Positions 41,064 through 51,401 of a stretch of DNA of 64,000 nt are shown here, piece after piece. The notes beneath the pieces are model-generated. The model was not told the origin of the DNA. It saw only the letters and a list, made by a program, of their open reading frames with translations, and made no database searches. The DNA comes from Acidimicrobiia bacterium (GTDB lineage: Bacteria > Actinomycetota > Acidimicrobiia > Acidimicrobiales > Aldehydirespiratoraceae). The DNA is taken from positions 62,001-126,000 of the forward strand of contig JAJEEV010000027.1 of assembly GCA_022820805.1 (NCBI GenBank), in the 5' to 3' direction. Each line of letters begins with the position of its first letter. Position 1 is the stretch's first letter. Position numbers and translations under genes: made by a program.

Positions 41064-41402
41064 TCAGCGGACTCGACGCATGGCGTCGAGGGCGCGCTCT
41101 TCGGCCACGCGCTTGCGGCCCACGATCGGCGTGGTGGGCGCGAATCCGGCTTCGGCCCGCTCCGACTCGCTCTCGCCTCCCCAGAAGCCGAGCTCGCGGT
41201 TCCTGCGGGCGTAGTCCCGGCACGAGATCAGCACTACGCACTGGTCGCAGATCGACCGGGCCCGAGCCTCGCGGCGGACCCTGGCTTCGGGCCGCTCGGC
41301 GAATGGGGCGAAGAACAGGTCGCTCTCCCCCGCGCATCGCCCGTGCTCCATCCAGCCCGTGGAGCCCACCGGGGCTACGGCCGTCTCGTACGCCTCGAGC
41401 AT
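41064..41402 (-). CDS. WhiB-family iron-sulfur regulator
   Basis: From ATG 41402 the protein has 112 residues with the four WhiB cysteines Cys23-x28-Cys52-x2-Cys55-x5-Cys61 and the turn GFWGGESESER (72-82), the family's sigma-factor contact motif. A basic C-terminus (VGRKRVAEERALDAMRRVR) would bind DNA. It should hold a 4Fe-4S cluster and tune transcription in response to redox. ATG 41420 and 41465 are in frame upstream, but the duplicated promoter-like sequence there favours 41402. It is the only recognisable regulator next to the LRR surface-protein gene. Confidence 0.88.
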   Translation of the reverse strand: MLEAYETAVAPVGSTGWMEHGRCAGESDLFFAPFAERPEARVRREARARSICDQCVVLISCRDYARRNRELGFWGGESESERAEAGFAPTTPIVGRKRVAEERALDAMRRVR

Positions 41403-41438
41403 CGGTATACAATTTAGCATCGGTATACAATTCTGCAA
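41398..41438 (-). promoter_or_regulatory. WhiB promoter with two 18-bp direct repeats
   Basis: The unit AGCATCGGTATACAATTT (41398-41415) is repeated as AGCATCGGTATACAATTC (41416-41433), one mismatch; each holds the palindrome GTATAC. On the minus strand TTGCAG (41433-41438), 16 bases, and TAAATT (41411-41416) form a promoter whose start would fall next to ATG 41402. The repeats therefore lie across the spacer and the transcription start, as for a regulator's tandem binding sites. Confidence 0.55.
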
Positions 41439-41526
41439 GGCGAACGTCTGAGAATATTGAAACATGAGGTCAGAGGGCAGATTCAGATGTCCGTCCGACC
41501 TTGACAAACCGCAGTCGCTCCAAAAC

Positions 41527-41552
41527 TCGGACATTTTCGTCGGACATTCTCG
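41527..41552. repeat. Tandem 13-bp direct repeat
   Basis: TCGGACATTTTCG (41527-41539) is followed directly by TCGGACATTCTCG (41540-41552), one mismatch. It lies in the gap between the WhiB gene and the CoA-transferase stop. GTCCGACC occurs shortly before. A protein-binding role is possible but unproven. Confidence 0.5.
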
Positions 41553-41573: not shown

Positions 41574-42821
41574 TCAGCTGCCGCCGGAAACCACGCCGGC
41601 GTCGTGCAGCCGGCCGATCTCGCCGGCCGAGAGGCCCAACCATCCGGTCAGAACCTCATCGGTGTGCTGGCCCAGCGCGGGTGCCGCTCCGGCATCCTCC
41701 AGCTCATCGGACCCCCGCGATTGGCCGGCTGCGAGGGACAGTGGCGAACCCGGCACCAGGTACGGGCCGATCCCGGGCTGATCCACCTCACGGAACAGCC
41801 CGGCAGCGGGCGAGCACCGGGGATCGCTGCCGACCAGCTCCGAGAAGGTCTGGTACGGCCCCCAGCACACTCCTAGCGAGTCCATGCGTTCCGCAGCCTC
41901 GGCAAAGGTCCGCTCACGGGCCCAAGCCTGCATCACGGCCTTGATCTCGTCGCGGGCCTCGAACCGGTCACCCTCGTCACTGAAGTCGAGACTCCGGGCA
42001 GCCGCGATCTCCGCGACCGCGGCTTCGCTCCCGGTGGCCTCCAGCAGCGAGGTCCACTGCCGGCCGCTGATGCCGACCGCGTAGAGGCGGCGCCCGTCGG
42101 CCGTCGACAGCTCCACTCCGAAGGCGCCGTAGAGGTCGTTTCCGCAGCGGGGCCGGATCGCGCCGTTGACCTGCACCTCGGCGATGTAACCCAGCGCGGC
42201 GGTGGCGGCCAGGGCCACGTCGCTCAGCGCGAGCATCATCACCGACCCCTCCCCCGTGAGCAGCCGGCGGCGGTCTGCGGCCAGGATCCCTACGGCAGCC
42301 GTCTGCCCGCACAGCAGGTCCCAGGCCGGCAGCACGCTGTTGATCGGATCCTCATGGTCCGCCGGACCGGTCACCATCGGGAACCCCATCGCCGCGTTCA
42401 CCGTGTAGTCGACCGCGGTGGTGCCGTCACGATTGCCGGTGACGGCCACCATCACCAGATCGGGCCGCCGGGCGGTCAGCCGGTCGGGCGCCATCCAGCC
42501 CCGGGCCGGGAAGTTGGTGAGGAAGGTGCCGGCCGCGCCGATCAGCTCGGTGAGCAACTCGTGGGCGGCCGGATCGCGCAGGTTGACAGCCAGCGACTTC
42601 TTGCCCTTGTTCAACCCGGCCCAGTACAGGGAGCGACCCTCGGCCGTGAGCGGCCACCGTCCGTAGTCGATGCCCCCGCCGAGAGGATCGAAGCGCACCA
42701 CCTCGGCTCCCAACTGGGCCAGCGCCATGCCTCCCGAGGGCGCGGCCACGAACGCCGACCCCTCGACAACCCGCAGACCGTCGAGCACCGCATTGCCGAT
42801 CACCCCCTCGAACCTAACCAC
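41574..42821 (-). CDS. Family III (CaiB/BaiF) CoA-transferase, 2-methylfumaryl-CoA isomerase-like
   Basis: The 415-residue protein has the family III CoA-transferase pattern, beginning LDGLRVVEGSAFVAAPSGGMALAQLGAEVVRFDPLGGGIDYGRWP and SLYWAGLNKGKKSLAVNLRDP. These resemble the intramolecular mesaconyl-CoA (2-methylfumaryl-CoA) transferases rather than general CaiB. The Asp in LPAWDLLCGQTAAVGI may be the catalytic carboxylate. It should move CoA between carboxylates; the isomerase assignment is from recall of the N-terminal pattern. It is divergent from GalD with a 41-base gap. Confidence 0.8.
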   Translation of the reverse strand: MVRFEGVIGNAVLDGLRVVEGSAFVAAPSGGMALAQLGAEVVRFDPLGGGIDYGRWPLTAEGRSLYWAGLNKGKKSLAVNLRDPAAHELLTELIGAAGTFLTNFPARGWMAPDRLTARRPDLVMVAVTGNRDGTTAVDYTVNAAMGFPMVTGPADHEDPINSVLPAWDLLCGQTAAVGILAADRRRLLTGEGSVMMLALSDVALAATAALGYIAEVQVNGAIRPRCGNDLYGAFGVELSTADGRRLYAVGISGRQWTSLLEATGSEAAVAEIAAARSLDFSDEGDRFEARDEIKAVMQAWARERTFAEAAERMDSLGVCWGPYQTFSELVGSDPRCSPAAGLFREVDQPGIGPYLVPGSPLSLAAGQSRGSDELEDAGAAPALGQHTDEVLTGWLGLSAGEIGRLHDAGVVSGGS

Positions 42822-42862: not shown

Positions 42863-43969
42863 GTGACCGAGAGCGTGCCGTGCATGCTGATGCGGGGCGG
42901 AACGTCGAAGGGCGCCTTCTTCCTCAGCCGGGACCTGCCTGACGATCCCGCCCAGCGCGACGACCTGATACTGCGCATCGTCGGCTCTCCGGACCCCCGC
43001 CAGATAGACGGGATCGGCGGGGCCCACGCGCTCACCACCAAGGTGGCTGTGATCGGTCCTCCGTCGAGGCCGGGCACCGACGTGGACTACCTGTTCCTTC
43101 AGCCCTCGGTGGATGAGCCCCTCGTCAGCGACGCCCAGAACTGCGGCAACATGCTGGCCGGTGTCGGCCCGTTCGCGGTCGAGAGGGGCCTGGTCGAGCC
43201 GGGCGGGACCGAGGCCCGGGTTCGCATCCACATGGTCAACACCTCATCGGTGGCGATCGCGACCTTCCCGCTGCGAGACGGCATGCCCGAATACTCCGGC
43301 CTGACCTCCATCGACGGCGTGCCCGGCGCCGCAGCCGCCGTGCGGCTCGACTTCGAGGATGTCGCGGGCGGCTCTTGCGGCACCCTGCTGCCCACCGGCA
43401 ATCTGGTCGACTCGGTCGAGGGAACCGACTGCACCCTCATCGACAACGGGATGCCGGCTGTGGTGATGAGAGCCCGCGATCTGGGTGTGGACGGCTACGA
43501 GGACTGCGCCACCCTCGAAGCCGACAACCGCCTGCGTGCCCGGCTGGAGCAGGTGCGAAGGGCCGCAGGCCTGCTGATGGGCCTCGGGGATGTGACCGCC
43601 TCCACCGTGCCGAAGATGACGCTGGTGGCGCCGCCGCGGACCGCCGCCGGAGACATCTGCACCCGGACCTTCATTCCCCACCGGTGCCACGAGGCGATCG
43701 GCGTGCTCGGGGCAGTGTCGGTGGCCACCGCGGCAGCGGTGCCCGGTGCCGTCGGCAACGAGATCCTGGCAGCGTCCCGTCCCGGGCCCGGACCGGGCGA
43801 AGCCTCCCGAATCGAGCGCGTCGTCACGCTGGAGCATCCGACCGGCACCTTCGAGGCCGCGGTGGACATCGCCATCCGACCAGGCGAGCCACCGACCGTC
43901 GAGAGTGCGGGAATCATCCGCACCACCAGGAAGCTCTTCGACGGCGAAGTCTTCGCGCGCCCGCGCTGA
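42863..43969 (+). CDS. galD: 4-Oxalomesaconate tautomerase (PrpF/GalD family)
   Basis: The 368-residue protein starts at GTG 42863 and opens VPCMLMRGGTSKGAFFL, the PrpF/GalD signature. DAQNCGNMLAGVGPFAVERGL and DFEDVAGGSCGTLLPTGN carry cysteines at the usual active-site places of the diaminopimelate-epimerase fold. With LigI, LigJ and LigK alongside, the specific role is tautomerising 4-oxalomesaconate between keto and enol forms. Without that context the family could equally be an aconitate isomerase. LigI follows after 19 bases. Confidence 0.83.
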   Translation: MTESVPCMLMRGGTSKGAFFLSRDLPDDPAQRDDLILRIVGSPDPRQIDGIGGAHALTTKVAVIGPPSRPGTDVDYLFLQPSVDEPLVSDAQNCGNMLAGVGPFAVERGLVEPGGTEARVRIHMVNTSSVAIATFPLRDGMPEYSGLTSIDGVPGAAAAVRLDFEDVAGGSCGTLLPTGNLVDSVEGTDCTLIDNGMPAVVMRARDLGVDGYEDCATLEADNRLRARLEQVRRAAGLLMGLGDVTASTVPKMTLVAPPRTAAGDICTRTFIPHRCHEAIGVLGAVSVATAAAVPGAVGNEILAASRPGPGPGEASRIERVVTLEHPTGTFEAAVDIAIRPGEPPTVESAGIIRTTRKLFDGEVFARPR

Positions 43970-43988
43970 CCGGCTCTGGCACCCCACC

Positions 43989-44858
43989 ATGGAGCCCACC
44001 ATCCTGCCGCCCCATCCTGATCCGCACCCGCCCTCCGCGTTCACCCCGCCACCGGACGCCTGCGACGCCCACTGCCATGTGTTCGGCCCCGCGAGCCGCT
44101 TCCCGTTCGCGGCGGGCCGCTCGTACACGCCTCCCGACGCCGGCGTCGAGCAGCTCCGGGCGCTGCATGAGCGCATGGGGCTCGGCCGGGCCGTGCTGGT
44201 GCAGGCCAGCTGCCACGGCACCGACAACTCGGCCATGGTGGACGCGCTCGAGCGGTCGCAGGGACGGTACGCCGGGGTGGCCATGATCGACGAGTCCTGC
44301 ACCGACGCCGAGCTCGACCACCTGCACGACGCCGGCGTGCGGGGCGCCCGGTTCAACTTCGTCAGGCACCTCGGTGGCGGGGACCTCGGCGCGTTCGAAC
44401 GCACCGCCCGGAGGGTGGCGCCTCGGGGCTGGCACATGGTGGTGCATCTCGACGCCGGCGACCTGCCCGACTTCGCCGGAGTGCTGCTCGCCCTGCCGTG
44501 CCCGTTCATCATCGACCACATGGCCCGCGTGCCGGCATCCGGGGGCCTCGAGCAGCCGCCGTTCGCCGCCCTGCTGGACCTGATGGACGATGAGCGAGCC
44601 TGGGTGAAGATCTCAGGAGCGGAGCGGCTCAGCGACGGCGGCCGCCCGCCCTATGACGACGTGGCCCCCCTGGCCCGGGCCCTGATCTCCGTGGCCGGCG
44701 ACCGGATCCTGTGGGGCACCGACTGGCCCCATCCCAACGTGAGGCACATGCCCGACGACGGCGACCTGGTGGACCTGCTGGCCGAGTTCGCCCCCGACGA
44801 GGCCGACCGCAACCGGATCCTGGTCGACAACCCCCAGCGCCTCTACGACTTCGCCTGA
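43989..44858 (+). CDS. ligI: 2-Pyrone-4,6-dicarboxylate hydrolase-like amidohydrolase
   Basis: The 289-residue amidohydrolase has DACDAHCHVFGPASRFPFA near residues 23-41 (the HxH plus an aromatic loop typical of LigI), FNFVRHLGGG, FIIDHMARVP, and the C-terminal ILWGTDWPHPNVRHMPDDGDLVD. These match pyrone-dicarboxylate lactonases, which open 2-pyrone-4,6-dicarboxylate to 4-oxalomesaconate without needing a metal. It starts at ATG 43989, 19 bases after GalD, and converges on LigK. Confidence 0.83.
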   Translation: MEPTILPPHPDPHPPSAFTPPPDACDAHCHVFGPASRFPFAAGRSYTPPDAGVEQLRALHERMGLGRAVLVQASCHGTDNSAMVDALERSQGRYAGVAMIDESCTDAELDHLHDAGVRGARFNFVRHLGGGDLGAFERTARRVAPRGWHMVVHLDAGDLPDFAGVLLALPCPFIIDHMARVPASGGLEQPPFAALLDLMDDERAWVKISGAERLSDGGRPPYDDVAPLARALISVAGDRILWGTDWPHPNVRHMPDDGDLVDLLAEFAPDEADRNRILVDNPQRLYDFA

Positions 44859-44881
44859 CCCCGGCTCGGCCGGGCAGTGCC

Positions 44882-45592
44882 CTATCCCTCCGGATCGTCG
44901 GCGGTGTCCACCCAGCGCACACCCATGTCGGTGAGCTTCTGGCGCAGGCCGTACATGTCCAGACCAAGCTCGCCGGCCGCCAGCCGGGCCCGAGCGTCCT
45001 CCTCGCCGGCCAGCCGCTGACGGGACATGTCCAGCGCCCAGTCCGCCTCGGAGCGGGCCACCACCACCACGCCGTCGTCGTCGGCGCAGATGACGTCGCC
45101 GGAGCTGACCGTCTGCCCGCCGACCACCACCGGCACGTTCACCGAGCCCGCAGTGGCCTTGACAGTCCCCTGGCAGGAGACATGGCGGCTCCACGCCGGG
45201 AAGCCCATGGCCCGCAGTTCGGCTGTGTCGCGCACCCCCGCGTCGATCACCAGGCCCCGCACCCCCCGAGCCTGAACGGAGGTGGCCAGCAGGTCCCCGA
45301 AGAAGCCGTGCGGAGACGGCGCGCTCACCGCCACGACCAGGATGTCGCCCGGCTGGCAGGTCTCGACCGCGGCGTGGATCATCAGGTTGTCGCCCGAGTG
45401 GCACAGTGCGGTGACCGCGCTGCCCGCTATCCGGGTGCCGGTCTGGATGGGGCGGATGTCGGGACCGAGGTAGCCCCGCCGGCCGATGGCCTCGTGGACG
45501 GTGGCGCTCCCGATCGCCGCCAGGGCGTCGACCACGGCCGGATCGGCCCGCGGCACGTTGCGAACCACCACCGGCCGGCCGTGATCACTCAT
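44882..45592 (-). CDS. ligK: 4-Carboxy-4-hydroxy-2-oxoadipate aldolase / oxaloacetate decarboxylase
   Basis: The 236-residue RraA-fold protein has the metal-site region GDILVVAVSAPSPHGFFGDLLATSVQARGVRGLVIDAGVRD, with the Arg-Asp pair of the LigK/HMG class II aldolases, and ends in the extra C-terminal helix that separates aldolases from RraA. It cleaves 4-carboxy-4-hydroxy-2-oxoadipate to pyruvate and oxaloacetate. Its ATG overlaps the LigJ stop (ATGA 45589-45592), so the two are translationally coupled and the substrate assignment is well supported. Confidence 0.87.
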   Translation of the reverse strand: MSDHGRPVVVRNVPRADPAVVDALAAIGSATVHEAIGRRGYLGPDIRPIQTGTRIAGSAVTALCHSGDNLMIHAAVETCQPGDILVVAVSAPSPHGFFGDLLATSVQARGVRGLVIDAGVRDTAELRAMGFPAWSRHVSCQGTVKATAGSVNVPVVVGGQTVSSGDVICADDDGVVVVARSEADWALDMSRQRLAGEEDARARLAAGELGLDMYGLRQKLTDMGVRWVDTADDPEG

Positions 45593-46593
45593 TGCACCTC
45601 CAAACGGGGATAGACCCGTCGAGCATTGTGTTCGAAGATCTTGGCCCCGGCCTCATCGTCGAGCGCGGCGTTGTCGATGTAGCGACGGGTGTCGTCGTAG
45701 TGGTGCCCAGTGAGAGGATCGATGCCGCGCACCGCGCCCACCATCTCCGATGCGAACAGGACGTTGTCGACGGGCATCACGTCGACGAGCAGGTCGATGC
45801 CACGCTGGTGGTACACGCAGGTGTCGAACCAGATGTGCTCCAGCAGCCCGTCGAAGTCCCAGCCGTAGTCCTGGGCCATTCCCCTGAAGCGTCCCCAGTG
45901 GTACGGCACCGCTCCCCCGCCGTGGGGGATCACCAGGCGCAGCCCCTCGAAGTCGGCCAGGAAGCCTGAGGTCAGTGCCTGCATGAAGGCGGTCGTGTCG
46001 GCGCCCAGGTAGTGCGATCCGGTGGTGTGGAAGTTCTCGTTGCAGGACGCGCTCACGTGGATCATGGCGGGGACGTCGAGCTCGCACATCGCCTCCCACA
46101 GCGGCCACCAGTAGCGGTCCGCCAGCGGCGGTCCGCTCCAGTGGCCGCCGCTCGGGTCGGGGTTGACGTTGCATCCGATGAACCCCATCTCCTCGGTGCA
46201 GCGCCTCAGCTCCCGCACCGAGGAGTCGATGGGCGCGCCCGGAGACTGCGGCAACTGCGCGACTGGGGCGAAGTTGCGGGGGTACAGGTCGCACACCCGG
46301 CGGATCAGCTCGTTCTGGTGCTGGCTCCAGAACTTGGAGGTGTGCTCGTTGCCGATGTGGTGCCCCATCCAGCTGGCCCGGGGCGAGAAGATGGTCAGGT
46401 CCGTGCCCCGCTCGCGCTGGAGGGCGAGCTGAGCGCCCTCAAGGCTCTCGCGGATCTCGTCGTCGCTGACGGCGATCTCACCCTTGGACCCCACGTGGCC
46501 GGGATCGGCGGCAACCGCCGCCTTCTGAGCCTCGCGCCACTCCCCCACCGCTGGTGGGGTGGTGGTGTAGTGGCCGTGGCAGTCGATGATCAC
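45589..46593 (-). CDS. ligJ: 4-Oxalomesaconate hydratase
   Basis: The 334-residue amidohydrolase-fold protein starts VIIDCHGHYTTTPPAVGEWR (GTG), the LigJ/GalB N-terminus. It contains FSPRASWMGHHIG, GCNVNPDPSGGHWSGPPL, LVIPHGGGAVPYHWGRFRG and NVLFASEMVGAVRGIDP. It adds water to 4-oxalomesaconate to give 4-carboxy-4-hydroxy-2-oxoadipate for LigK. It lies 9 bases downstream of the selenoperoxiredoxin gene, so peroxiredoxin, LigJ and LigK form one minus-strand operon. Confidence 0.88.
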   Translation of the reverse strand: MIIDCHGHYTTTPPAVGEWREAQKAAVAADPGHVGSKGEIAVSDDEIRESLEGAQLALQRERGTDLTIFSPRASWMGHHIGNEHTSKFWSQHQNELIRRVCDLYPRNFAPVAQLPQSPGAPIDSSVRELRRCTEEMGFIGCNVNPDPSGGHWSGPPLADRYWWPLWEAMCELDVPAMIHVSASCNENFHTTGSHYLGADTTAFMQALTSGFLADFEGLRLVIPHGGGAVPYHWGRFRGMAQDYGWDFDGLLEHIWFDTCVYHQRGIDLLVDVMPVDNVLFASEMVGAVRGIDPLTGHHYDDTRRYIDNAALDDEAGAKIFEHNARRVYPRLEVQ

Positions 46594-46602
46594 CAGGATC
46601 CG

Positions 46603-47073
46603 TTAGGAGCGGGCTGCGATGTCGGCCAGGACTTGGTCTGCGTGTGTGGCCAGGTCCTGGCCTGCGAGGTCGTAGACCGCGGCTATCTGGCCCTCGGGAT
46701 CGATCAGGTAGGTGATGCGGCGGGGCAGCCCGTACTCGTAGTAGTCCTCCCCCGGCTCGCGCTCGGCGTGGTAGCTGCGCCCAATGGACTTGTCCGCGTC
46801 GCTGATCAGCAGGTAGCCGAACCCTTCGGTGTCGGCGAATTGCCGCTGGTCCTCGACGGTGTCGAACGATGCGCCGACCACCACTGCGCCGGCTCTCTCG
46901 AACTCCGGGGCTCGATCACGGAACCCCCTGCCCTCCTTGGTTCAACCGGAGGTCGAGGCCTTGGGGTACCACCACAGCACTACCCAGCTGCCCCGGAGGT
47001 CGGTCAGGCGCACTGGGTTGCCTTGCTGGTCGGGGGCCTCGAAGTCGGGGGCCTGCGAGTTCACATCAAGCAT
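46603..47073 (-). CDS. Selenocysteine peroxiredoxin (BCP-type), TGA at the peroxidatic position
   Basis: On the minus strand the frame runs from ATG 47073 through TGA 46944-46942 and on to the stop at 46603, giving 156 residues with the internal TGA as residue 44. The protein begins MLDVNSQAPDFEAPDQQGN and reads WWYPKASTSG-U-TKEGRGFRD. BCP-family peroxiredoxins have YPKDxTPGCTxEAxxFRD there, so the TGA replaces the peroxidatic Cys and Thr41 keeps the T-x-x-C(U) spacing. The C-terminal half (GRSYHAEREP, GLPRRITYLIDPEGQI) is intact. The protein contains no cysteine at all, so it has no resolving Cys of its own. It should reduce peroxides with an external thiol. A SECIS-like hairpin follows. It is first in an operon with LigJ and LigK. 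Confidence 0.9.
46907..46927 (-). promoter_or_regulatory. Bacterial SECIS hairpin of the peroxiredoxin gene
   Basis: On the minus strand GGGGTTC and GAGCCCC pair over 7 bp (one U-G wobble) around the loop CGTGATC. The loop begins 21 bases after the TGA and has G at its second position. Spacing, loop size and G position all satisfy the bacterial SECIS model. Confidence 0.75.
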
Positions 47074-47143
47074 GGCCGGGAAGATACCGGAACCGTCAAC
47101 CGGGCCGCGACTCGGGTCCTCACCTCGACTTGCCGCGAGCCGG

Positions 47144-47187
47144 TGGCGACCAGACCCAGGAGTGGCGAGCAGACCCAGGATTAGGGT
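47144..47187 (+). repeat. Tandem 19-bp direct repeat and -10 element before the FAD-linked oxidase
   Basis: TGGCGACCAGACCCAGGAG (47144-47162) is followed immediately by TGGCGAGCAGACCCAGGAT (47163-47181), two mismatches. A -10-like TAGGGT (47182-47187) abuts the second copy and lies nine bases before ATG 47197. The repeats thus occupy the -35 region, where an activator or repressor would bind. The same 123-base gap also serves the divergent peroxiredoxin operon. Confidence 0.5.
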
Positions 47188-47196
47188 GGCCTGCCG

Positions 47197-48633
47197 ATGA
47201 CGTTCGTAGATGGGCTGCGCGCCGACCTTGGCGAGGCTGGGATCCTGACCGGGCATGATGCCGAGCCGTACCTGACCGGCCAGCGGGGCCTGTACACCGG
47301 GGAGGCTCTGGCCGTGGTGCGACCAGCGTCGGTCGACGAGACGGCACTGGTGGTCCGCGCCTGCGCGTCGGCCGGGGTGGCCATCGTGCCCCAGGGCGGC
47401 AACACCGGGATGTCCGGCGGCGCAGTGCCCGTCACCGCGGATCCTGCCGGTAACACGGCAAGACCCTCGGTCGTGCTGTCGATGAGCCGCATGAACCGGA
47501 TCGTGTCGGTGGACCCCGACCGCTGGACCATCACCGCCGAGGCCGGCGCCACCATCGAAGCGGTGCAGCAGGCCGCGGCCGCAGCCGGTCGCCTGTTCGC
47601 GCCGGACTGGGGGGCGCGGGGAACCGCCACCGTGGGCGGGGCCATCGCCACCAACGCCGGCGGCAACAACGTGGTGCGATACGGCACGATGCGCGATCAC
47701 GTGCTCGGCCTGGAGGCGGTACTGGCCGACGGGCGGGTGTGGGACGGGCTGCGGGCGCTGCGGAAGGACTCCTCGGGATACGACCTGAAGCAGCTGTTCA
47801 TCGGGGCCGAGGGCACTCTCGGTGTCGTGACGCGGGCGGTACTGCGCCTGCACCCGGCCACGCCCCACGCCCAGAGCGCGCTGGCGGCCGTCTCGGGACT
47901 CGACGGCCTCATGCCTCTGCTGGAGCTGGCCGAGGCCCGCTGCGGCGGCGATGTCACCGCCTTCGAACTCGTCCCCGATGTCGGCCTGGAGCGGGCCTGT
48001 GAGAAGTTCGGCCTCGCCCGGCCCCTGGAGGCCCGAGCCGAGTTCTACGTGCTGGTACGGCTGTCCTCGACGGAGCCGGTGTCGGACCGGCTGGGGGCGT
48101 TCCTGGACGAGGCCTCCGAGTGCGGCTGGGTGATCGACGCGGCGGTGGCGGTGACCGACGAGCACGAGGAGCGCCTGTGGACCATCCGCGACGAGCTGCC
48201 GGCCATGCGGCTATGGGACCAGCACGAGCACGGAGTCAAGCTCGACACCGCGGTGCCCATCGACCGGTTCGGCCCCTATCACGACGAGGTCCGCCGCATC
48301 GCGGCCGAACTGGCTCCGGATGCCCTGACCTACGGCTTCGGCCACGTCGGCGACGGCAACGTCCACATGTACGTCCTGCCCACCAACGATGACCAGGTGG
48401 AGCCGTTCCTAGCCGTGCGCGACGAGTTGCGGGAGCGAATCGAGGAGGCCACCTTCGCCTACGGCGGCACCCTCAGCGCCGAGCACGGCATCGGCCAGCT
48501 CCTGCGCGACCGGATCCGGCACCAGAAGCCCGAGATCGAGTGGGACCTAATGCAAGCGGTCAAGCACGCCCTCGACCCCCAAGGCATCATGAACCCCCAC
48601 AAGACCTTGCCCGCCGACCCCCGGCAAGCCTGA
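47197..48633 (+). CDS. FAD-binding oxidase (GlcD/D-2-hydroxyglutarate dehydrogenase type)
   Basis: The 478-residue protein has the PCMH/VAO-type FAD domain (AIVPQGGNTGMSGGAVP near 65-81; GTATVGGAIATNAGGNNVVRYG), LGLEAVLADG, and the C-terminal FAD-oxidase domain with GFGHVGDGNVHMYVLP and GGTLSAEHGIGQ. The histidines in the latter bind a divalent metal in D-2-hydroxyglutarate dehydrogenases. It oxidises a D-2-hydroxy acid; which one is not clear. The start is likely near-leaderless, behind a TAGGGT element and a tandem repeat. Confidence 0.88.
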   Translation: MTFVDGLRADLGEAGILTGHDAEPYLTGQRGLYTGEALAVVRPASVDETALVVRACASAGVAIVPQGGNTGMSGGAVPVTADPAGNTARPSVVLSMSRMNRIVSVDPDRWTITAEAGATIEAVQQAAAAAGRLFAPDWGARGTATVGGAIATNAGGNNVVRYGTMRDHVLGLEAVLADGRVWDGLRALRKDSSGYDLKQLFIGAEGTLGVVTRAVLRLHPATPHAQSALAAVSGLDGLMPLLELAEARCGGDVTAFELVPDVGLERACEKFGLARPLEARAEFYVLVRLSSTEPVSDRLGAFLDEASECGWVIDAAVAVTDEHEERLWTIRDELPAMRLWDQHEHGVKLDTAVPIDRFGPYHDEVRRIAAELAPDALTYGFGHVGDGNVHMYVLPTNDDQVEPFLAVRDELRERIEEATFAYGGTLSAEHGIGQLLRDRIRHQKPEIEWDLMQAVKHALDPQGIMNPHKTLPADPRQA

Positions 48634-48639
48634 GCACTA

Positions 48640-50124
48640 CTAGGAGAGCCAGTTGATGGCTTGGACCTCGGTGTAGGCCTCGATCCCCCACTTGCCCCGG
48701 TCACGGCCGATGCCCGACATCTTGAAGCCGCCGAAGGGTGCGTACATGTGGGGCTGCACCGTGTTGAGGGCCACGTTGCCCGATTCCAGCCGGCAGCCGA
48801 TCTCATAGGCCCGCTTGGCGTCGCCGGCGTACACGTAGGAGAACAGCCCGTACGACGAGTCGTTGGCCAATGCGACGGCCTCGTCGTCGCCGTCGTGGGC
48901 CAGCACCACCACGACCGGCCCGAAGGCCTCCTCGCGGGCCACCTCCATGTCGGGGGTGACGTCCACCAGCAGGGTGGGCTCCACGAAGCAGCCGGGAAGG
49001 TCGGGGCGCTGCCCGCCGCACACCGCGGTCGCCCCGGCGTCCACCCCGCCCGCGATGAAGCCCTCGACCCGGTCGCGGTGGGTTTCGGTGATGACCGGGC
49101 CGACGATCGTGCCGGGGGCCCGGCCGTCTCCCACCTTCATGAACCCGGCGAAGGCCTTGAGGGTCTCGACGGTCTGGTCAAGGATGCTGCGATGGCAGAT
49201 CACCCGGGTGGGGGCGGTGCAGATCTGGCCCGAGTGCAGCCCCCAGGTGGTGGCGATGCCCATGCAGGCCGCGTTCACGTCGGCGTCCTCGGTCATCACC
49301 AGGGCGCCCTTGCCGCCGAGTTCCATCAGCACCCGCTTCATGGTGGCCGCGCCGTCGGCGTAGATGCGGGCGCCGACGGCGGTGGAACCGGTGAAAGACA
49401 CCATGTTCACGTCGCTGGAGGCCACCAGCGCTGCGGGCGCCTCCGGCCCCGAGCCGGTGACGATGTTGACAACGCCGTCATCGAAGCCGGCCTCGGCCAC
49501 AGCCTCGCCCAGCAGCAACACGCCGAGCGGGTCCTGGGGAGCGGGTTTGATGACCACCGTGTTGCCGGCGGCCAGCGCGGGCGCGACCTTGCCGGCCACG
49601 TTCACCAGCGGCATGTTGTAGGGGGTGATGCAGGCAACCACCCCAACCGGCTGGCGCTTGACCGTCGCGCCGATCAGGCCGGCCGGCCCCAGAGCGCCCT
49701 TCTCGGCGGGCATCGGAGCAACGTCCTCGTCGACGTTTATCGGGTTGGAGTAGTAGCGGAACCGGTCGATCATCGGTCCGCCGACCTGCAGGTTCTTGGC
49801 GATCGAGGTGACCGAGCCGGTCTCGGCCTGCACCAGATCGAGCCACGACGGCGCCATCCGCTCGATGACTTCGGCCAGCGAGGCCAGGCGGCGGCCGCGC
49901 TCCTCGGGGCTGAGCCCCCGCCAGCCGCCCAGCGCCTCGCGGGCTGCCCGGGCCGCGTCGGCAGCCTGGCCCGCGGTCGCTTCGGGTGCGTGGCCCACAA
50001 CGGTGCCGTCGTTCGGGTCGATGACCGGGTAGGTCCCGGCATCGGGCTCAGTCCACTCCCCGCCGATCAGCAGTCTCCAGGATCGGTCGGTGTCAATAGC
50101 CGCTTCGTCGCTACTGTTGTGCAC
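48640..50124 (-). CDS. Aldehyde dehydrogenase
   Basis: The 494-residue protein follows the NAD(P) aldehyde dehydrogenase pattern: ITPYNMPLVNVAGKVAPALAAGNTVVIKPAPQDP, SFTGSTAVGARI, the catalytic Glu in LMELGGKGALVM and the nucleophile Cys in SGQICTAPTRV. The ending SGIGRDRGKWGIEAYTEVQAINWLS is also standard. It oxidises an unknown aldehyde to the acid. It converges with the FAD-linked oxidase (six-base gap) and is divergent from the thiolase. Confidence 0.92.
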   Translation of the reverse strand: MHNSSDEAAIDTDRSWRLLIGGEWTEPDAGTYPVIDPNDGTVVGHAPEATAGQAADAARAAREALGGWRGLSPEERGRRLASLAEVIERMAPSWLDLVQAETGSVTSIAKNLQVGGPMIDRFRYYSNPINVDEDVAPMPAEKGALGPAGLIGATVKRQPVGVVACITPYNMPLVNVAGKVAPALAAGNTVVIKPAPQDPLGVLLLGEAVAEAGFDDGVVNIVTGSGPEAPAALVASSDVNMVSFTGSTAVGARIYADGAATMKRVLMELGGKGALVMTEDADVNAACMGIATTWGLHSGQICTAPTRVICHRSILDQTVETLKAFAGFMKVGDGRAPGTIVGPVITETHRDRVEGFIAGGVDAGATAVCGGQRPDLPGCFVEPTLLVDVTPDMEVAREEAFGPVVVVLAHDGDDEAVALANDSSYGLFSYVYAGDAKRAYEIGCRLESGNVALNTVQPHMYAPFGGFKMSGIGRDRGKWGIEAYTEVQAINWLS

Positions 50125-50198: not shown

Positions 50199-51401
50199 AT
50201 GCCCGAAGCTGTGATCGTCGCCACTGCCCGAACCCCGATCGGCCGGGCCGTCAAGGGATCGCTCACCGAAGTCAGGCCCGACGACATGTCGGCGTTCATT
50301 ATCGGCGATGTGCTGTCGAAGGTCCCTGGCCTCGACCGCAACGACGTGGAGGACGTGATCTGGGGCATCGGACAACCCGGCGGCGAGGGCGGCTACAACG
50401 TCGCCCGGGTCGCCTCCATCCTGGCCGGAGTGAACGCGCCGGGCGTGACCGTCAACCGCTACTGCTCATCGTCGCTGCAGACCATCCGCATGGCCGCCCA
50501 CGCCATCAAGGCGGGCGAGGGCGACTGTTTCGTGGCGGGAGGCGTGGAGACCGTGTCACGCTACGACAAGGGGGCTGCGGACAGCGGCCCCCACAACGGC
50601 CAGTTCGCCGACGCCCAGGACCGCACCGCCGAGCGCACCGCCGAGGGCTCCGCCACGTGGGCTCCCCCGCAGGGTCTGCCCGACATCTACATCGCCATGG
50701 GCCAGACCGCCGAGAATGTCGCCCAGTTCAAGGGCGTGTCCCGCCAGGCCCAGGACGAGTGGGGCGTGCGGTCCCAGAATCGGGCCGAGGCGGCTCGCGA
50801 CCGGGGCTTCTTCGAGCGTGAGATCACTCCGTACCCGATGGCCGACGGCTCCGAGGTCCAGAGCGACGACGGGATCCGGGCCGGCACCACCCTCGAGGGC
50901 GTCTCCCAGCTGCGGCCGGTGTTCCGTCCCGACGGCACCGTCACCGCCGGCAACTGCTGCCCCCTCAACGACGGCGCGGCCGCGGTGGTGGTCATGTCCG
51001 ACGCCAAGGCGGCGGCAGTCGGCGCCACGCCCCTCGCCCGCATCGTGGCCACCGGCGTCTCCGCTCTCAACCCCGAGATCATGGGCCTCGGCCCGGTCGA
51101 TGCCTGCCGCCAGGCCTTGGATCGGGCCGGCATGACGATGGACGACATCGACCACGTCGAGATCAACGAGGCCTTCGCGGCCCAGGTTCTGCCCTCGGCC
51201 GACGACCTCGGCATCGACTACGACAAGCTCAACCCCAACGGCGGGTCGATCGCGCTGGGCCATCCCTTCGGCATGACCGGGTCGCGCATCATGTGCACGC
51301 TGCTGAACGGCCTCGAGGACGCCGACAACACCATCGGCCTCGAGTCGATGTGCGTGGGCGGCGGCCAGGGGATGGCGATGATCGTCGAGCGCCTCAACTA
51401 A
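50199..51401 (+). CDS. Acetyl-CoA acetyltransferase / thiolase
   Basis: The 400-residue thiolase begins VIVATARTPIGRA. It has the acylated cysteine Cys89 in NRYCSSSLQTIRMAAHAI, NEAFAAQ, GGSIALGHPFGMTGSR with the catalytic His, and CVGGGQGMAMI with the second Cys near the C-terminus. It either cleaves 3-ketoacyl-CoA or condenses two acyl-CoA units. It is full length and monocistronic by spacing. Confidence 0.93.
   Translation: MPEAVIVATARTPIGRAVKGSLTEVRPDDMSAFIIGDVLSKVPGLDRNDVEDVIWGIGQPGGEGGYNVARVASILAGVNAPGVTVNRYCSSSLQTIRMAAHAIKAGEGDCFVAGGVETVSRYDKGAADSGPHNGQFADAQDRTAERTAEGSATWAPPQGLPDIYIAMGQTAENVAQFKGVSRQAQDEWGVRSQNRAEAARDRGFFEREITPYPMADGSEVQSDDGIRAGTTLEGVSQLRPVFRPDGTVTAGNCCPLNDGAAAVVVMSDAKAAAVGATPLARIVATGVSALNPEIMGLGPVDACRQALDRAGMTMDDIDHVEINEAFAAQVLPSADDLGIDYDKLNPNGGSIALGHPFGMTGSRIMCTLLNGLEDADNTIGLESMCVGGGQGMAMIVERLN

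Follow-up and report, generated by a model that had tools for sequence, protein, structure and literature searches.

What does a gene encode when a TGA stands exactly where a peroxiredoxin should have its catalytic cysteine, and how would the product work if it contained no cysteine at all? This question is raised by positions 46603–47073 of the 64,000-nucleotide stretch of Acidimicrobiia DNA analyzed here (hereafter the window), which comes from a 3.4 Mb draft genome of 53 contigs that is 94.8% complete. Working without database searches, a sequence-only reading had proposed a BCP-type peroxiredoxin with selenocysteine (Sec, U) in place of the catalytic cysteine, a full-length frame of 156 residues lacking cysteine, and a SECIS-like hairpin 21 bases further on. 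Its coordinates were right, but the strand was left unstated: the gene lies on the minus strand, and the plus strand over the same interval is unrelated. Translation of the minus strand from 47073 down to 46603 with TGA read as Sec yielded the predicted 156 residues, with a single UGA at codon 44 (46942–46944, minus strand), a regular stop at the end, and a cysteine count of zero.

The protein matches the Pfam AhpC-TSA domain with 120.6 bits, and U44 falls in the context YPKASTSGUTKEG at the peroxidatic position of the motif P37-x-x-x-T41-x-x-U44, in keeping with what had been proposed for the TGA. With both the domain and the PxxxTxxU motif it belongs among the TxxU peroxiredoxins. Subfamily placement was less sharp. 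The best NCBIfam model, PRK09437, scored 88 bits against a cut-off of 140, the PrxU model reached only 42.6 bits against a cut-off of 270, and no NCBIfam equivalog scored above its own cut-off for this protein. PrxQ/BCP is nevertheless the nearest subfamily by both sequence and fold. An AlphaFold2 model built from 45 sequences of the clade described below had a mean pLDDT of 95.4, and its nearest solved structures were Mycobacterium tuberculosis BcpB and other PrxQ/BCP proteins, with AhpE first appearing at rank 17. Alignment with BCP/PrxQ homologues placed Sec at the peroxidatic site and revealed no cysteine at either of the positions where 2-Cys members of this subfamily carry their resolving residue, namely +5 or the second-cysteine position of Xanthomonas PrxQ (C84). 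T41, U44 and R119 were invariant in both alignments used, that of the 22 orthologues (A1) and a second one (A2).

An in-frame UGA may also be a real termination codon or an artifact of sequencing, in which case the gene would be a pseudogene or give a truncated product. A mechanical list of open reading frames indeed splits the gene, with one minus-strand frame (46942–48165) ending at the UGA and a 93-aa piece (46603–46884) following it. The relatives argue otherwise. Among 119 genomes, the window's own included, 22 orthologues share at least 47% identity with the window protein, and each of the 22 contains exactly one TGA, at the aligned position. A profile search of contigs with the orthologue alignment returned 155 relatives, and the best 80 of these (the named-contig loci) all have U at the site, 79 as typed by script and one (L121) by eye; because this search used two clade-typical motifs, it did not sample cysteine-containing relatives fairly. 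Fairer sampling was provided by a class-wide search of 395 genomes (E ≤ 1e-38), in which 43 genomes matched and 38 of the 43 had TGA. The five remaining matches had Cys (G291), Ser (G356), or Cys together with a second Cys at +5 (G102, G126 and G136), and the last three fall outside the clade in the tree. Downstream of the UGA, dN/dS between the window gene and eight relatives was 0.17–0.46, indicative of purifying selection. A search for truncated or decaying homologues in relatives thus turned up full-length genes that keep the UGA. The nearest named relatives are labeled Acidimicrobiia or Acidimicrobiaceae and are all metagenome assemblies, with a few of the 80 titled Proteobacteria, Deltaproteobacteria or simply bacterium; the marine actinobacterium MedAcidi-G2B (L139) is also a clade member. 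A scan of viral contigs gave a single short match (L063).

Bacterial SECIS elements are hairpins located just downstream of the UGA with a G in the apical loop. The hairpin that had been claimed is present and fits this rule in both position and loop G: a 7-bp stem and a 7-nt loop, CGUGAUC (together 46907–46927, minus strand), with the loop beginning 21 nt after the UGA. Its folding free energy is unremarkable (z = +0.67 for the window gene; a mean z of −0.05 relative to synonymous recodings over 86 distinct orthologue genes), and this measure, being uninformative, was replaced by stem pairing compared with synonymous recoding and with swapping of the stem arms. For the 86 distinct genes in a sample of 101 (L141 was left out), mean pairing was 6.65 of 7 positions; 500 synonymous recodings gave 4.88 ± 0.09 (maximum 5.13), and 500 arm swaps gave 6.07 (maximum 6.21). 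Six or seven pairs are formed in 80 of these genes and only two to five in the other six; inspection by eye indicated that three loci titled Deltaproteobacteria (L101, L103 and L105) are without the usual 3′ arm. All 86 distinct genes use CGT for Arg52, whose codon lies in the loop (46918–46920, minus strand), as compared with 44 of 523 arginine codons elsewhere in the same genes. Thirty-two further members, some of them from the same species, have CGT at this position in 30 cases and CGG in two (L214 and L224). Rfam at gathering thresholds reported nothing in the window or in five loci.

The sequence-only reading had also asked for Sec genes elsewhere in the genome, and all were present. SelA (377 bits) adjoins SelB (279 bits), and SelD (358 bits) itself has an in-frame TGA in the context SHGAG-TGA-GCK; all three score over their curated cut-offs. 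The tRNA-Sec match scored 68 bits, and ARAGORN identified it as tRNA-SeC with anticodon tca. SelA was detected in 36 of the 38 genomes with TGA from the class-wide search and was not found in the other two (G445 and G289). Three of the 22 orthologue genomes (G003, G006 and G020) gave no strong match for tRNA-Sec, though SelA was found in all three. Matches to tRNA-Sec of at least 58 bits occur in 87 of the 119 genomes, including 19 of the 22 with clade members; the correlation between the clade and tRNA-Sec is weak. Retention of the UGA in every orthologue and in the best 80 relatives, selection on the codons beyond it, and stem pairing above the null lead us to reject a pseudogene or a sequencing error, and with the Sec machinery encoded in the same genome we give that explanation almost no credence. 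The genomic record instead makes it very probable that the gene specifies a true selenoprotein, namely a PrxQ/BCP-type peroxiredoxin of the 1-Sec kind.

How might such an enzyme work? Sec44 would be inserted by SelB and tRNA-Sec together with the hairpin just after the UGA, a step for which the genomic evidence is strong. Judging from the fold and the conserved residues, the selenolate, which sits where the active-site helix begins, would attack H2O2 or organic hydroperoxides with the assistance of Thr41 and Arg119. An external thiol would probably then reduce the resulting selenenic acid, as in 1-Cys enzymes of which AhpE is an example; the donor may be a redoxin or a small thiol, mycothiol-like or of another kind.

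The case for an outside reductant depends on the cysteine content of the family. In a tree of 103 rows, built from roughly one clade gene in three together with selected others (L217 and L221 were left out), the clade formed a single branch of 53 rows with support of 100/99. Two other Sec groups among the PrxQs branch apart from it and mostly retain the +5 Cys, and the Sec label changes five times on the tree as compared with 28.2 in shuffles. Across 107 distinct Sec-containing clade proteins, T at −3 is found in all 107 and P at −7 in 105. No cysteine whatsoever is present in 74 of them. The other 33 have one somewhere, but a resolving cysteine is conserved nowhere in the clade: position +19 (18 of 107) is the only one with Cys in more than three proteins, and +5 has it in two. 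Because it is without the +5 Cys of its nearest cysteine-containing relatives, the Sec clade, as the alignment shows, is not a plain Cys-to-Sec swap; where the tree is rooted decides whether the clade lost the +5 Cys or other lineages gained it. The recurrent +19 Cys, and the presence in the same genome of a second Sec PrxQ that has a +5 Cys, could be taken to mean that the resolving partner comes from within the family, through an inter-subunit cysteine (for example at +19) or a heterodimer with a cysteine-containing paralogue. We think this very unlikely, given that more than two thirds of the clade proteins have no cysteine and that residue 63, at the start of the strand 63–69, should lie remote from U44 according to thioredoxin-fold topology. 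With no resolving Cys in the window protein and none conserved in the clade, oxidized Sec is instead expected to be reduced from outside.

Two exceptions within the class-wide search have another residue at the Sec site. The gene with Cys at the Sec site (L218, contig C1 of G291) nests inside the Sec clade, its loop arginine codon is CGC, and SelA was not found in its genome (one contig, 95% complete). It is therefore likely to be a Sec-to-Cys replacement. The gene with Ser at the site (L217, contig C39 of G356) has His-Glu in place of the usual preceding Ser-Thr and comes from a genome in which SelA is present; it was assigned to the clade by score only (167 bits), being absent from the tree, and its product is perhaps catalytically dead or repurposed.

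For the outside thiol, the sequence-only reading had suggested mycothiol; the need for an external reductant follows from the absence of cysteine, whereas mycothiol itself is only plausible. The genome encodes an MshD homologue above cut-off and two MshC-like ligases that score 408 and 397 bits, under the cut-off of 485, and mycoredoxin-1 had no match in this 94.8%-complete assembly. MshC is not a decisive mark of mycothiol here, since its model matches in 118 of 119 genomes, never above the curated cut-off, and the genome's own CysS-like protein also scores 285 bits. The MshC-like ligases besides CysS are located at C43:21588–22661 (L145) and C40:2677–3669 (L146) of the genome (G000). Many relatives likewise have three matches to the model, from which one of the ligases may make a different cysteine-containing small thiol.

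The surroundings of the gene may offer hints as to its role. Eleven window genes were tested against the 80 named loci, using flanks of up to 3 kb that were often shorter. Relatives of an aldehyde dehydrogenase gene (48640–50124, minus strand) were found near the peroxiredoxin in 43 loci, those of a WhiB-like protein gene (41064–41534, minus strand; start codon provisional) in 30, those of a CoA-transferase family III (CaiB) gene (41574–42821, minus strand; nearest model 2-methylfumaryl-CoA isomerase, 491 bits against a cut-off of 725) in 29, and those of a thiolase gene (50199–51401, on the plus strand and so divergent from the peroxiredoxin) in 18. The distance from the peroxiredoxin stop to CaiB is 10–85 nt in 26 of the 29 loci, and that from the aldehyde dehydrogenase to the peroxiredoxin is 52–196 nt in 22 of the 43 and 889–2864 nt in the other 21. 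The order peroxiredoxin–CaiB–WhiB occurs in 26 of the 80 loci; 14 of these have the aldehyde dehydrogenase before the peroxiredoxin, nine have the thiolase without the aldehyde dehydrogenase, and four have all four genes. On the other hand, 21 of the 80 loci have no match to any of the 11 window genes, and CaiB was matched in only 8 of 25 class-level loci (L192–L216, with flanks of about 1.5 kb), so that only some clade members share the gene order. Other genes, among them those for 4-oxalomesaconate tautomerase and 4-carboxy-4-hydroxy-2-oxoadipate (CHA) aldolase (both over their cut-offs), interrupt the aldehyde dehydrogenase–peroxiredoxin–CoA-transferase–WhiB order in the genus to which the window belongs. 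Positions 42863–46593 of the window, within the peroxiredoxin neighborhood, encode this tautomerase and aldolase and two amidohydrolases, which presumably belong to a pathway of the protocatechuate 4,5-cleavage type.

One could argue from the shared neighborhood and the short distance to CaiB that Sec is inserted but that the protein acts as an oxidoreductase or senses peroxide and is not a bulk peroxidase, for example by relaying oxidation to WhiB or the aldehyde dehydrogenase. The loci without matching genes, the low CaiB count at class level and the interrupted order in the window's own genus all weigh against this reading, which we judge improbable. Only slightly less doubtful, and offered as speculation, is a broader proposal in which the cysteine-free, selenium-only peroxidase would be the dedicated peroxide defense or sensor of an aldehyde/CoA-thioester cluster that includes a WhiB regulator. 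The reductant of this peroxidase would be a small thiol, mycothiol-like or even coenzyme A itself, and its dependence on Sec would be so strict that any lineage giving up Sec synthesis would have to rebuild the site.

Additional selenoprotein candidates were observed in the same genome. The second Sec PrxQ (C39:56589–56954, L002) has the motif TAGUTRQSC with Cys at +5. An AhpC-TSA-type protein with a WSSWUGC motif (C1:95250–95585, L004) is a probable selenoprotein that recalls the WAxxUGC family, and two thioredoxin-fold proteins with the motif WFWAPHUPxC (C15:19789–20115, L020, and C9:204–434, L021), both near contig ends, are probable UxxC selenoproteins. The locus points to a selenoproteome in uncultured members of Acidimicrobiia that is broken up when stop codons are taken at face value. 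Cysteine normally defines a peroxiredoxin, and a clade that mostly lacks it while retaining Sec in many species offers a natural test of the contribution of selenium. It poses the question of how peroxide is turned over without a resolving cysteine, for which the Cys replacement in G291 (SelA not found) and the Ser replacement in G356 (SelA present) are natural comparisons. The enzyme should work only if the cell has selenium and a thiol helper from outside the protein.

Mycobacterial AhpE, a 1-Cys peroxiredoxin, is reduced by mycothiol and mycoredoxin-1. It resembles the window protein in having a single peroxidatic residue and in fold (TM 0.89, rank 17), but it uses Cys and is only 27% identical. 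Closest in fold at rank 1 is M. tuberculosis BcpB (5epf; 37% identity, TM 0.88). The window protein differs from BCP/PrxQ enzymes in carrying Sec instead of Cys and in lacking a Cys at +5, and from Xanthomonas PrxQ in having no Cys at the position aligned with C84. The second Sec PrxQ group (the C39:56589 gene of the same genome and most of L149–L164) likewise has Sec at the peroxidatic position, but most of its members retain the +5 Cys (L160 and L162 lack it), and it forms a separate branch. Peroxiredoxins with Sec in PxxxTxxU, like the window protein, have been described before: the available text of the respective reports gives 43 in the Sargasso Sea set (TxxU, COG1225; PMC1088965) and 253 in the GOS set (PMC2398784), with no mention of a resolving Cys, a 2006 genome set tabulates 12, along with five conversions of Cys to Sec and none in the opposite direction (PMC1794560), and a title cited in PMC13188914 names a Sec-containing peroxiredoxin of Eubacterium acidaminophilum. 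Because the marine actinobacterium MedAcidi-G2B is a clade member, the marine sets likely include members of the Acidimicrobiia clade. A Sec peroxiredoxin from Acidimicrobiia, the 1-Sec clade or its gene order was not found in the literature searched, mostly outside subscription journals. TxxU Sec peroxiredoxins are thus known and common in marine metagenomes; the Sec-only, cysteine-poor clade, part of which has a gene order in common, appears to be a new form of them.
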